Part shown: positions 4,006 through 49,670 of the stretch, piece after piece
Layout: each line of letters begins with the position of its first letter
How positions within the stretch are numbered: the stretch's first letter is position 1
Origin: a virus
Strand: one strand, 5' to 3'
Length of the DNA: 64,000 nucleotides
Virus record (IMG/VR): IMGVR_UViG_3300020205_001800
Coordinates: 36,627 to 100,626 of that record
Notes under the pieces: model-generated
Seen by the model: the letters and a program-made list of their open reading frames with translations, nothing else
What the model was told of the DNA's origin: nothing
The model's database searches: none
Made by a program: the position numbers and the translations under genes

Positions 4006-4216
4006 CGAAGACGACCTACGTTCATATGGGTACATGACCCCAGGTGAATTTGTAGACGCTTTGGTTCCAGGACTTAAGGAATACTTACGACATAATTGGG
4101 GAGTTAAACCTGATGAGTTGTATCACCCAGAAGATTTGTTTTCTAACGCAGAGATCTATCTTCAAGTTGCTAGGCACGTAGCCGGTGATTTTATAGTCGC
4201 ACCAAAAAGGAAGTAA
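3989..4216 (+). CDS. Small unknown protein
   Basis: A 75-residue protein. The ATG at 3989 has GGAGG at 3978-3982 and is preferred to an upstream ATG that lies inside the preceding gene. No domain was recognised. It lies directly before the primase gene, whose ATG follows its stop codon without a gap. Confidence 0.6.
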   Translation: MGKKSNEDDLRSYGYMTPGEFVDALVPGLKEYLRHNWGVKPDELYHPEDLFSNAEIYLQVARHVAGDFIVAPKRK

Positions 4217-5194
4217 ATGTATAGAGAAGGGGATGTGCAGAAGGCTCTTCTGCGCTTGGGTATTCCGACCGATCAACGCAATAGTGAGTTGATCGGTATT
4301 TGCCCTATGCACTTAGAACGTACTGGGCGAGAAGACCATAACCCTTCATGGTCTATCAACCTAGAGACCGGTGTCCACCACTGCTTCTCCTGTGGATACA
4401 AAGGTACGCTCCTGACGCTTGTTGCGGAGGTTCAGGATTTTCAGACTAGCTGGGGACGTTTGGATTACGAAGCTGCTAAAACGTGGCTACGTAGTAATGT
4501 GGAGATTGATTTTGAGCTTCTATCAAAAGAACTTGAAGCATTAAAAGATTCTTACGTCTCGCCTCCTCGCCCCATTGAGATGGGCGAGGCACGGTTAGCT
4601 GTTTATTCTGAACCTCCCCAATGGGCGTTAGAGGCACGAGGCTTAACAGCGGAAGCTTGTGCTACTTATAGAGTTATGTGGGACGCTCGCGCAGAAACTT
4701 GGATTACCCCTATCCGTAACCCAGATACTGGGAAATTACTGGGGTGGCAAGAAAAAGGACAAACAAACAGAACATTTCGCAACCGCCCCACGGGTATAGC
4801 TAAATCTACAGCTCTATTTGGTTTAGAGGCTTGGGAACAAGGAACTATGCTTGTAGTTGAATCACCATTAGACGTAGTAAAAGTTTCTTCTGTTGGTTTT
4901 GGCCAACACACAGTGGCTACTTTTGGCGCTGTAGTGAGCGACGCTCAAGTAGAGCTTTTTCGTAAAGCTGATCGTTTAATTATGGCCTTTGATAACCCTA
5001 ATATCGATGCCGCTGGCAAAAAAGCCTCACTAGCGATCTTGGCAAAAGTTAGGACGCTGGGCATGGAATGTTCGTTTTTTAACTACGGAGATTCCGGAGT
5101 TAAAGATGTTGGCGATATGACCGCAGACCGTATAAGATACGGTATAGAAAATGCTAAACACTGCGTATTCGGAGAGTCCGCAATCTACGGTTAG
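4217..5194 (+). CDS. DnaG-type DNA primase
   Basis: The 325-residue protein begins with a CHC2-like zinc finger: C29-x2-H32 and C56-x2-C59 (CFSCGYKG). A TOPRIM-like segment follows, with the conserved Glu in LVVESPLDVV and an acidic strand LIMAFDNPNID. These are the zinc-binding and catalytic parts of DnaG-like primases. It is shorter than host DnaG and lacks a clear C-terminal helicase-interaction domain. It sits between the DnaB-like helicase and the SNF2-type helicase and probably makes the primers for lagging-strand synthesis. Confidence 0.85.
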   Translation: MYREGDVQKALLRLGIPTDQRNSELIGICPMHLERTGREDHNPSWSINLETGVHHCFSCGYKGTLLTLVAEVQDFQTSWGRLDYEAAKTWLRSNVEIDFELLSKELEALKDSYVSPPRPIEMGEARLAVYSEPPQWALEARGLTAEACATYRVMWDARAETWITPIRNPDTGKLLGWQEKGQTNRTFRNRPTGIAKSTALFGLEAWEQGTMLVVESPLDVVKVSSVGFGQHTVATFGAVVSDAQVELFRKADRLIMAFDNPNIDAAGKKASLAILAKVRTLGMECSFFNYGDSGVKDVGDMTADRIRYGIENAKHCVFGESAIYG

Positions 5195-43446: not shown

Positions 43447-43760
43447 ACTGTCTTATCTCCTTTCTCTGTTGATAAGACAGGGGACACACGCATTACTATC
43501 TGAATTACCGTGAGGCTCACTCTGTGACCTCTCTTGCGTTGTTGCACTCTGTATGTAAGCACAGTCGCGTCTTTTCTTACATACTTCACTCTTACTACGG
43601 GAGGACTAACATGCCCCACTGGGTACCTCTGACCCCATAGTCCGTATCACATCAGCTTCTTCACGCTCCCTGTATGCAAGACTTAGCCTCCCCCATACAT
43701 TCTTCGTCCTCGGTGATAATAGATAACCTATGCGTGTGTCTCCTGCCTTATCGACATGTG
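43447..43760 (-). ncRNA. Non-coding stretch with tandem hairpins
   Basis: No convincing gene is seen between 43380 and 43760. Instead there are inverted repeats in tandem: CTGTCTTATC/GATAAGACAG (43447-43479), GAGG-TCAC/GTGA-CCTC (43513-43532), GTATGTAAG/CTTACATAC (43551-43584), and TGTATG/CATACA (43671-43699). The stems of two hairpins share a TATG-type start. The stretch may encode small structured RNAs; direction is presumed to follow the minus genes. Confidence 0.45.
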
Positions 43761-46024: not shown

Positions 46025-46187
46025 TGTCAGCCTTTGCCATCTGCTCACCAATGAAATACGCCATGCATGTATCGCATGACGAACGGTGAACCAGATCGTT
46101 GTAGTGATTGATGAGGTGCTTACGAACCTTCAAGGCGTGGTTGCGAATGTAGTCCCAGTCCGGCGTGTTTGTGTTGGGCTCATCCAT
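46017..46187 (-). CDS. Unknown 56-residue protein starting in a repeat copy
   Basis: The N-terminus MDEPNTNTPD is partly encoded by a CCAACACAAACA copy, as in the 45120 gene. A C-x2-C (SCDTCMAY) is preceded by a His-rich helix (RKHLINHYNDLVHR), so zinc binding is possible. Confidence 0.5.
   Translation of the reverse strand: MDEPNTNTPDWDYIRNHALKVRKHLINHYNDLVHRSSCDTCMAYFIGEQMAKADNE
46166..46177 (-). repeat. 13-bp repeat copy 11
   Basis: CCAACACAAACA on the minus strand at codons 4-8 of the 46017 gene (encodes PNTNT). Confidence 0.8.
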
Positions 46188-46338
46188 GGAGCGCCTTCAT
46201 ATCTTGTGTGATGACGGTGTATGCAATAGCACAGGGACGACAGTAAGTCTCGGTTGGGATACCGCCTAACTGGAATGCGTCAGTGCCACTGTAGACAAGG
46301 TCTGTGTTTTCACAGTGTATTACTTTGCATGTTGCCAT
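46180..46338 (-). CDS. Small Cys-pair protein
   Basis: 52 residues from the ATG at 46338, with AAGGAG upstream. Cys at CKVIHC and YCRPC could form one zinc site. Its leader carries RNA-like element A (46379-46468), and the frame is open into that element. Confidence 0.55.
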   Translation of the reverse strand: MATCKVIHCENTDLVYSGTDAFQLGGIPTETYCRPCAIAYTVITQDMKALHG

Positions 46339-46378
46339 GCTCTTCTCCTTTGTCTTTACTCTTCTTGTGAAGAGTGAG

Positions 46379-46468
46379 AGATACATAAGTCTTTTAGGCT
46401 CGCAGTTTATAGCGTCCGCCGACGACATGGGCTTTTCGCACCCCGTCCTAAATACTACTTATGTATCT
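46379..46468 (-). ncRNA. Structured RNA-like element A
   Basis: A perfect 12-bp closing stem pairs AGATACATAAGT (46379-46390) with ACTTATGTATCT (46457-46468). Inside, TTTAGG/CCTAAA forms a second stem, and two hairpins follow (CGC/GCG around AGTTTATA; GACG-GGG/CCC-CGTC). The layout is cloverleaf-like. It sits in the leader of the 46180 gene, and element B at 47.3 kb shares both flanks. It is not a tRNA. Confidence 0.5.
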
Positions 46469-46511
46469 TCCACCTTCCACACGGTAAAATTTCGCGGGGG
46501 ATTTTGGTGTA

Positions 46512-46763
46512 TTACTTCATAGGATGTAGATATCCATTGGTCTTACGATAGGCATAGACACGTTGTCTAATAGCGCGGGGGTTTGGATACTCTATGGCTA
46601 TTGCTATGTGCTTTATCATGATGCCATCATCTACAAGGGATACCAATAGGCTATCGAACTCTTGGTCTTTGCTATCTCTCTTGCCATGATTGCCTTTGAC
46701 TGTGGATATGTGAGGCATCAGCTCTCTAAGCCTATCTACATGCTGGCGGTGTATTGTTTTCAT
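46512..46763 (-). CDS. Putative helix-turn-helix protein
   Basis: 83 residues; basic, with a helix pair (LVDDGIMIKHIAIAIEYPNP then RAIRQRVYAYR) that resembles a small HTH unit. The ATG at 46763 overlaps the upstream TGA, which favours it over an earlier in-frame ATG. DNA-binding is inferred. Confidence 0.45.
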   Translation of the reverse strand: MKTIHRQHVDRLRELMPHISTVKGNHGKRDSKDQEFDSLLVSLVDDGIMIKHIAIAIEYPNPRAIRQRVYAYRKTNGYLHPMK

Positions 46764-46864
46764 CGCTTGACCATGAGATAGAAGATAGAGGCAGAGATAG
46801 TCAGCCACAGAAGAGTGATAGGCAGACCGGACTGCATAGGGTCTAGGTAATCTAATAGGCTCAT
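46760..46864 (-). CDS. Small membrane peptide
   Basis: 34 residues with one membrane helix (PITLLWLTISASIFYLMV) ending KR. Overlaps both neighbours (ATGA), like the other two tiny membrane genes of this block. Confidence 0.5.
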   Translation of the reverse strand: MSLLDYLDPMQSGLPITLLWLTISASIFYLMVKR

Positions 46865-47076
46865 ACTGCTACCTGCTTTCCATCACATTGCTCATTGAAC
46901 ATAGTAGAGTGCCCACACTCTGTGCATCGGCATCTCCATACACGGACGAACTGATCATCGTAGTCAGCCACCTTCTCCACATAGTCCTCGTTGATACGAG
47001 GTGTCATTGCGTAGGTCATTACGTTCGGTGCCTGGCAATTACTACACGTGAACTTGAACCAAGCTGGTGCTCCCAT
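46861..47076 (-). CDS. Zinc-ribbon protein
   Basis: 71 residues. Two Cys pairs (FTCSNCQAP and RCRCTECGH) 40 residues apart form a probable zinc ribbon. The ATG at 47076 overlaps the upstream stop (TAATG); an in-frame ATG at 47088 is an alternative. Confidence 0.6.
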   Translation of the reverse strand: MGAPAWFKFTCSNCQAPNVMTYAMTPRINEDYVEKVADYDDQFVRVWRCRCTECGHSTMFNEQCDGKQVAV

Positions 47077-47261
47077 TACTTTTCCCATCCTTTCTGATAG
47101 GCGAACTCGTTGTAGCAGCCTGCGCACACATAGGCGCGGGCATTCTTTTCATACTGACTGTGCATAGTGCCACCACACTCAGAGCAGGGCTTATCACCGT
47201 GCCAGAGGATAGATGACATAAGGGCTAGTGCTAGGGTGTTGGCGTTTGTTTGTGTTGGCAC
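47076..47261 (-). CDS. Zinc-ribbon protein with uncertain start
   Basis: 61 residues if it starts at the GTG at 47261 (AGCAGG upstream), 47 residues from an ATG at 47219. It has two Cys pairs (PCSECGGTM and VCAGCYNEF). With the GTG start the CCAACACAAACAA copy again lies just after the start codon and encodes PTQTN. Confidence 0.5.
   Translation of the reverse strand: MPTQTNANTLALALMSSILWHGDKPCSECGGTMHSQYEKNARAYVCAGCYNEFAYQKGWEK
47246..47258 (-). repeat. 13-bp repeat copy 12
   Basis: Exact copy on the minus strand, directly after the possible GTG start of the 47076 gene. Confidence 0.85.
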
Positions 47262-47297
47262 GACAACCTGCTTTCTACTCTCCAGATAGAGAGTGAG

Positions 47298-47395
47298 AGA
47301 TACATAGTGGTATTCCATACTCGCCACCCATTTACAGGCATAGAGCCCATGGTGGTATCTAGTAACAACAGGAGTATTCTGCCCACTATGTATCT
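47298..47395 (-). ncRNA. Structured RNA-like element B
   Basis: A perfect 13-bp closing stem pairs AGATACATAGTGG (47298-47310) with CCACTATGTATCT (47383-47395). Inner stems ATACTC/GAGTAT and CCACC/GGTGG and a GGC/GCC hairpin can form. On the minus strand its flanks GGTGGAAGATACATA and TATGTATCTCTCACTCT are the same as in element A, while the inner half of the stem differs in both arms together. Confidence 0.5.
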
Positions 47396-47403
47396 TCCAC
47401 CGA

Positions 47404-47801
47404 CTATCTGATAACAGCAGGCCGAGCCTAGCCCAGACCTGGTTGGTCTCTCAATGCTCATAGTTGTGGAGTTTGTAGTAGCCAAACTATCTATGATGTG
47501 AGTTATGTCTCAGTATGTGGAAAGAGACCCTAGCCAGAACTAACTGAAGGGCTGACTAGGGTCTCTCGACAGAAGACACGATTTCTTTCTCTTACGGGGG
47601 CGGGCTAACGATTGGCTTGCGCACTTCCATAGCTCTGCGAGCATAGGTCTGACTGCTACCTATACCGATACTCTCGTATCTACCGAGTTGATTCGGATTC
47701 CCCTCTTACCATAGGGCTAGTAACTCCCTATCTACGCCCATAGTTATGTATGGACATAGATAGGGGCGGGGACATAAGCCCCCGCCACTACCCATTACCG
47801 A
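47404..47801 (-). other. Non-coding stretch rich in inverted repeats
   Basis: About 400 bases with no credible gene. It contains AGAGACCCTAG/CTAGGGTCTCT (47523-47566) with an inner CAG/CTG, a GATAC-GAGA-GTATC hairpin near 47670-47690 and CCCTATCTA/TAGATAGGG in 47720-47765, besides the terminator at 47765. These could be small RNAs or RNA processing sites downstream of the first gene of the minus block. Confidence 0.45.
47765..47786 (-). terminator. GC-rich hairpin after 47802 gene
   Basis: GGCGGGG/CCCCGCC, loop ACATAAG, 16 bases after the stop of the 47802 gene on the minus strand. There is no T-tract; likely partial terminator or processing site. Confidence 0.6.
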
Positions 47802-49103: not shown

Positions 49104-49670
49104 ATGACAACGCTTGCAGCAATACAAGGAGATGGTTGGTCAGTAATTGGCTGTGACTCTCGTGCATCGGATGAAGACGGCCGATATATGGAACTTGCTA
49201 CATCTAAGGTTGTCAACAACAACGGAATACTCATTGCAGTCTCTGGAGCTTCCCGCGGTGGAAACATTACACAGTTTGGTTGGAAGCCACCAAAGCCTCG
49301 TAATGCAGAAGACTTAGATTTATTTATGACTAAGCGCTTCATACCTAGCATGCGTAAAGCTTTTCAAGAAGCTGGCTATGAAGGTAAGGAAGACGGCGAT
49401 GCAGCATGGCAAGACTCCAATTTACTCGTTTCAGTACGTGGAGTGATTTACCCAATCTTTAATGATTACTCATGGGATAGAGAAGCACGTAACGTCTACT
49501 ACGCTGGTAGTGGAGGAGACATTGCACTAGGAGCACTAGAGGCTCTCAACTTCTCGAAGATAAATACACCCGAGGCCGCCGAAAAAGCTTTGAGGCGTGC
49601 GATCGAGGCCGCTGTAAAGCACGACATCTATTCAGGTGGAGAGATCCATACATACGTACAAGAGGCTTAA
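49104..49670 (+). CDS. Proteasome-like Ntn hydrolase
   Basis: 188 residues. After the initiator Met the protein begins TTLAAIQ, and a VIGCDSRAS strand follows, so that with Thr2 as residue 1 the Asp falls at position 17 as in proteasome beta subunits. A Lys follows near position 34 (ATSKVV), and GSGGDIALGALEAL matches the Gly-rich helix start. This is the 20S-beta/HslV fold. It stands at the head of the structural genes, so it may act as a prohead-type or processing protease. Active-site identity is inferred from spacing. Confidence 0.75.
   Translation: MTTLAAIQGDGWSVIGCDSRASDEDGRYMELATSKVVNNNGILIAVSGASRGGNITQFGWKPPKPRNAEDLDLFMTKRFIPSMRKAFQEAGYEGKEDGDAAWQDSNLLVSVRGVIYPIFNDYSWDREARNVYYAGSGGDIALGALEALNFSKINTPEAAEKALRRAIEAAVKHDIYSGGEIHTYVQEA

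Follow-up and report, generated by a model that had tools for sequence, protein, structure and literature searches.

Structured RNA elements with a mid-stem mismatch and a competing hairpin in the intergenic leaders of a probable actinobacterial phage

The locus and its phage

The window analysed here is a 64,000-nt stretch of DNA covering bases 36627-100626 of a 100,626-bp IMG/VR virus record (IMGVR_UViG_3300020205_001800), and it holds three structured elements, A, B and C. Elements A (46379-46468) and B (47298-47395) occupy gaps of a minus-strand operon, this strand being the sense strand, and each lies directly 5' of the ribosome-binding site of a small gene that encodes a CxxC protein and has a Shine-Dalgarno (SD) sequence of its own. 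The gene after A (46180-46338, minus strand) encodes a 52-residue CxxC protein and starts with the ATG at 46338 following AAAGGAG; the gene after B (47076-47261, minus strand) encodes a 61-residue zinc-ribbon-like protein with a probable GTG start at 47261. The third element, C (43448-43752, minus strand), is a structured RNA of 260-280 nt. The locus is marked by a phage-encoded HslV/proteasome-like hydrolase gene (49104-49670, plus strand), which has ~500 relatives in viral contigs.

The terminase of the phage is 52-53% identical to those of Streptomyces phages BRock (53%) and LuckySocke, and the HslV-like gene is 40% identical to its counterpart in Actinomycetia phage DSL-LC01 from Dishui Lake water. 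As both genes resemble those of actinobacterial phages, the host is probably an actinobacterium, and the virus appears to be an actinobacterial phage of freshwater type. The whole evidence base presented below is comparative and thermodynamic.

Sequence and folding of elements A and B

An earlier note on this DNA had described A and B as a pair of RNA-like elements with shared flanks and perfect closing stems, and both stems were re-found where they had been placed. In the upper stem (P2) of A, AGATACATAAGT (46379-46390), the 3' arm on the minus strand, pairs over 12 bp with ACTTATGTATCT (46457-46468), the 5' arm; in B, AGATACATAGTGG (47298-47310) is the 3' arm and pairs over 13 bp with CCACTATGTATCT (47383-47395). 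The two elements have exactly the same minus-strand flanks, GGTGGAAGATACATA and TATGTATCTCTCACTCT, which have no other occurrence in the window. Both elements fold far better than dinucleotide shuffles (z of about -5.9 for A and -5.4 for B), with 0 of 200 shuffles being equally good. The argument that the two arms change together between A and B holds in part: the covariation is true among relatives, the arms of A included, but the comparison of A with B is by itself weak evidence because their inner halves are not homologous.

The stem extends beyond the ends first assigned to it. The earlier note had overlooked this outer part with its central mismatch, and likewise the hairpin that competes with it ahead of the ribosome-binding site, the exchange of interiors and the larger element C. 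Under a central A x C mismatch lies a GUGG/UCAC pairing, followed by an outer pairing X:X', which brings the total to ~22-26 bp with the mismatch in mid-stem. In A, the mismatched A 46469 faces C 46378, the commonest state of this position; GUGG (46470-46473) is partnered by UCAC (46374-46377), and the outer 5' strand X, TGTGGA (46476-46481), complements X', TTCACA (46366-46371), its own pairing being better than that with other elements. In B, A 47396 faces C 47297 beside GUGG (47397-47400), and X, CAGATAG (47404-47410), complements X', CTATCTG (47283-47289). All of these lie on the minus strand, as does a hairpin, P3, that includes X' and therefore reuses the 3' strand of the lower stem: ACTCTTC-ACAA-GAAGAGT (46358-46375) in A and ACTCTCT-ATCT-GGAGAGT (47277-47294) in B.

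Further features surround these two elements. A conserved block, TTGAGA-18 nt-TAGGCT, is present just upstream of B (47420-47460, minus strand) and is shared in part by several relatives; it resembles a sigma-A promoter, which would place B at the 5' end of the transcript. A strong inverted repeat of 72 nt (GATAGGCCACTGGCC...GGCTRGTGGCTTATC) is seen at L069 6782-6853 (minus strand) and also in L080, L090, L093, L095 and L097; it adjoins, on the upstream side, whichever element position is closest to the HslV-like gene, a place taken in other phages by a promoter-like block. At 46485-46510 (minus strand), between the upstream stop codon and the second-position element, lies the motif TCCCCCGCG...TTTT, which is found in the same place in L020, L026, L027 and L047.

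Relatives and a common platform

A pattern scan with both flanks at the spacing of B returns one relative, in which B is nearly unchanged despite a different following gene and A carries compensatory changes and a ~160-nt loop. Searching with the neighbouring HslV-like gene gives 80 loci, 28 of which hold the strict form of the element, at ~1-4 copies per contig. A pair-aware profile covering the stem only identifies 41 distinct elements in IMG/VR relatives at a score of at least 34, where the best score on reversed sequence is 25.6. The contigs are metagenomic, and distant relatives that share no sequence likeness will certainly have escaped detection. The platform common to these elements is a ~22-26-bp duplex mismatched at its centre, mostly by A x C, which encloses a variable interior and is followed by the hairpin P3 just before the SD sequence. 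Copies can also stand in tandem, as in L029 and in L108, where at least three overlapping elements (4099-4390, minus strand) are arranged such that the P3 3' arm of one doubles as the 5' strand of its successor.

The platform pattern has no match in bacterial or archaeal genomes, a nucleotide search of the 5-kb region against annotated phages returns none, and phage BRock, for all the likeness of its terminase, has no such element in its first 100 kb. A loose scan for GGA...C mismatch stems was dropped, as reversed sequence gave as many matches as the real one. A pattern built on one interior type alone (T1, below) yields one new genuine member, L129, which has the platform, and seven other new loci that are coding-like or without the stem.

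Covariation across the stem is strong. Standard pairs make up 98.8% of the cells in 26 distinct stem cores, and 11 of the 13 stem pairs are changed on both sides, which is approached by 0 of 500 shuffles and by no slid control; the stem also contains an invariant G-C pair and an invariant A-U pair. The pair-aware profile biases these counts towards pairing. Neither P3 nor the outer strand X was part of that profile, and the tests of P3 and X:X' described below are free of this bias. In the same cores, G.U cells on the sense strand number 26 and A.C cells 3, which indicates that the selected molecule is RNA and not a DNA palindrome. A free scan of the mismatch position finds A x C most frequently and U x C next; C x A and C x C are rare, and a few elements are fully paired at this position. 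By the earlier note's own criterion, the RNA reading would fall if further homologues with compensatory changes and a thermodynamic advantage were both wanting; both are present, with 41 elements, 11 of 13 stem pairs double-changed and z below -5.

Hairpin P3 and the lower stem

In 29 of 41 elements, the first base of P3 lies exactly 3 nt beyond the mismatch C. P3 scores 15.5 against 6.4 for shuffles. Its arms co-vary, pairing at -7.4 kcal/mol with their own partners and at -3.3 kcal/mol when swapped between elements. Likewise, where X is non-standard it pairs with its own P3 region at -6.8 kcal/mol, in comparison to -3.4 kcal/mol with those of other elements. P3 and the lower stem are thus each independently supported, and they are mutually exclusive because both use one 3' strand. 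Reading this pattern mainly as a true pseudoknot, with X paired to the P3 loop, was rejected, there being almost no linker and the P3 5' arm lying wholly within the lower stem in L026, L027 and C.

The average energies are -29.7 kcal/mol for the uncut stem, -8.6 kcal/mol for P3 and -10.4 kcal/mol for the lower half duplex, and the intact stem is ahead of P3 by more than 10 kcal/mol in 41 of 41 elements. P3 normally leaves the SD sequence outside the hairpin, and no terminator-like U-tract follows P3 within the window, on which ground an attenuator or intrinsic terminator was rejected.

Interiors and downstream genes

Between the arms of the stem, interiors or spacers of ~20-236 nt fall into nine homologous types and many singletons, all mutually unrelated. 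Type T1, for example, has conserved unpaired CUGAG and GUGUA segments. Interior and downstream gene vary separately: six interior types occur ahead of a single gene family, recognized by MNCxxCGQPV, and T1 is found before at least six gene families. This decoupling argues against a gene-specific sensor.

Element C

Between its stem ends (43471-43752, minus strand), C consists of 11 bp, an A x C mismatch (43741/43482) and a further 11 bp, closing a structured interior of 236 nt. This stem region tops a generic inverted-repeat scan of the whole genome, scoring 49.5 where shuffles reach at most 35.5. (The second strongest inverted repeat of the genome, with a score of 44, lies at 4416-4627, plus strand, within an open reading frame at 4217-5194.) The competing hairpin of C, CTGTCTTATC-AACAGAGAAAGGA-GATAAGACAG (43448-43480, minus strand), holds an SD-like AAAGGAG (43463-43457) mostly in its loop, and its 3' arm GATAAGACAG repeats the 5' strand of C, GATAAGGCAG (43752-43743).

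A sequence-only nhmmer search finds 24 loci matching C, a number in which some overlapping pieces of the same contig are counted separately. When 16 distinct copies are aligned, double changes are seen at 43 of 61 consensus pairs, a level reached by 0 of 500 shuffles. Nothing similar to C is found in Rfam at E up to 1, and its conserved core has no match in bacterial or archaeal genomes. Stems of the same design but without sequence likeness are also seen at L108 1694-1918, at L087 4641-4865 and in L047.

Relation to known systems

Rfam searches at the gathering threshold and at relaxed ones bring up no family above threshold other than tRNAs, and the elements match no riboswitch, tRNA, ribozyme or other family, in agreement with the earlier note, which had recognized no riboswitch or tRNA. 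Membership of a riboswitch class was rejected, as there is no conserved aptamer core tied to a gene class and no match to a known one; a small self-cleaving ribozyme was rejected because only one mismatch is shared, itself variable, and no Rfam ribozyme matches.

The early mRNA of phage T7 carries RNase III processing sites between genes, in irregular duplexes of ~20 bp or more. The phage elements likewise form an intergenic duplex of ~20 bp or more in the transcribed strand, with cleavage here being only predicted, and a site of this kind is also known between the genes of the E. coli rpsO-pnp transcript (PMC8708148). The T7 and rpsO-pnp sites differ from the phage elements in being simple hairpins. 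We know of no RNase III site in mRNA with a large conserved RNA inside it and a strand-exchange hairpin.

A second likeness is to the intervening sequences (IVS) of bacterial 23S rRNA, which have a long near-perfect terminal stem and a variable interior of ~100-440 nt and are excised without splicing (PMC4990558, PMC8708148). The excising enzyme is RNase III, and in Coxiella the closing stem comprises 28 bp interrupted by a single mismatch and a bulge (PMC4990558). The phage elements share the long terminal stem closing a variable insert; however, they lie in mRNA leaders between protein genes, have no rRNA match, and add a 3'-side competing hairpin and conserved structured interiors, and their excision is only proposed. 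The closest precedents are the RNase III-excised 23S rRNA IVS together with the RNase III sites of polycistronic mRNA.

Extended start-associated sequences (ESAS) are found in cluster K mycobacteriophages and cluster EF Microbacterium phages, with spacers of 4-13 bp and promoter hexamers inside; in cluster K they are 17-bp imperfect inverted repeats beside a 13-bp SAS, their arms do not compensate each other, and their authors found little support for mRNA hairpins (PMC3203893, PMC11373665). Like ESAS, the present elements are repeats in intergenic gaps just upstream of the starts of small genes in actinophages, and the cluster K ESAS are inverted repeats as well. Identity with ESAS/SAS was rejected, since the spacers here are ~20-236 nt, no SAS consensus is seen and the arms covary, with 11 of 13 pairs double-changed.

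GOLLD, ROOL and other large phage-associated non-coding RNAs are large structured RNAs of unknown role in phages. C is likewise a large structured RNA carried by a phage, but it is 260-280 nt long, lies within an mRNA leader and matches nothing in Rfam.

A proposed excision cassette and its alternatives

A, B and C belong to one family of structured RNAs that occupy intergenic leaders in a phage operon, and the family may serve as an mRNA processing cassette with an interior freed by cleavage, a reading to which we give about an even chance. The nascent mRNA would fold into the long stem, and a double-strand RNase, probably host RNase III or an RNase III-like enzyme, would cut near the central mismatch, freeing the interior as a small hairpin RNA of ~50-270 nt. 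The lower half duplex, now ~11 bp and intermolecular, would be displaced by P3, and the downstream mRNA would then begin with a base-paired P3 5' end followed by a free SD sequence. The interior RNAs would be swappable and would probably act in trans.

It is the energies that suggest this order of events: P3 cannot win in uncut RNA because the stem is so far ahead, but the lower half duplex is near balance with P3, and therefore the pieces should separate after a mid-stem cut, a pattern that points to cleavage-triggered strand exchange. The recurrence of the same design in elements without sequence likeness (C and those in L108 and L087) also counts for a cassette, as do the stem covariation, the excess of G.U over A.C on the sense strand, the fitted P3 and X:X' pairings, the decoupling of interiors from genes and the similar closing stem of the Coxiella IVS.

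Several observations weigh against this proposal. The half duplex and P3 are near balance and not clearly in favour of P3, which is at least as stable in 11 of 41 elements. The mismatch, although common, is not universal: some elements have U x C there, and in L043, L070, L080 and one of the L093 elements the stem is fully paired. In L063 (8140-8264, minus strand) and L072 (8167-8280, minus strand), which have perfect or nearly perfect 23-bp stems, the competing hairpin would loop the SD sequence and start codon, with its 3' arm in the coding region. No phage RNase III gene (PF14622) is present in the 13 contigs examined, and therefore a host enzyme must be assumed, for a host that is itself deduced from gene likeness. 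The RNA ligase family (PF09414) is also absent from the contigs examined (11-13 for the ligase and RNase III searches), which leaves excision plus ligation unsupported.

The arrangement found in L063 and L072 would also suit translational control, and the elements could be cis-acting regulatory leaders, riboswitch-like or protein-sensing, in which the lower stem and P3 are alternative states setting translation of the next gene and the interior is the sensor. The conserved competing pairings and the position directly before the SD sequence of small genes fit this explanation. We nevertheless consider it unlikely, as the lead of the intact stem in every element is too large for an equilibrium switch, the interiors are swapped among genes, the SD sequence normally lies outside P3, and the U-tract expected of a terminator is missing after P3 in the window.

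The fixed position of the mismatch, the invariant G-C and A-U pairs and the repetition of copies along one operon could instead reflect a phage or host protein binding to the mRNA, as in put-type antitermination or translational control, with the duplex, mismatch and P3 being what is recognized. This is improbable in our judgement, for it leaves unexplained why P3 repeats the 5' strand, most clearly in C, and why large conserved interior RNAs such as C exist.

Common ends around unrelated interiors, the tandem copies in L029 and L108, and a mosaic distribution (28 of the 80 loci) are also what would be expected of selfish or mobile hairpin elements, comparable to rRNA intervening sequences, that are harmless in leaders because they are cut out. 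Such elements would hardly be expected to lie almost invariably on the sense strand and to come with a matching P3 and SD sequence, and C is conserved in many contigs with strong covariation; neither a mobility gene nor a target duplication came to notice, although no systematic search was made for either, and this origin seems more doubtful still. A palindromic operator or cruciform acting at the DNA level, which the resemblance of inverted repeats upstream of genes to ESAS-like operators might suggest, was already disfavoured and is highly improbable given the one-strand asymmetry of G.U over A.C cells, interiors reaching ~236 nt, and the presence of P3 and X:X' pairing.

Implications for phage biology

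A wider form of the excision proposal, which we offer tentatively and with distinctly less confidence, is that the mid-mismatch stem and strand-exchange hairpin form a standard cassette hosting many unrelated trans-acting structured RNAs. One operon could then deliver swappable small RNAs, for example for counter-defence or host takeover, together with mRNAs that carry a protective hairpin at their new 5' ends. The signature of mid-mismatch duplex, interior, competing hairpin and SD sequence is searchable in other phages without sequence likeness, and every interior type, that of the 260-280-nt C among them, adds a new candidate non-coding RNA without known relatives. If the proposal is true, phages carry many small RNAs in modular fashion within ordinary mRNA leaders, where a built-in device would part the pieces after the cut and protect the new end of the mRNA.
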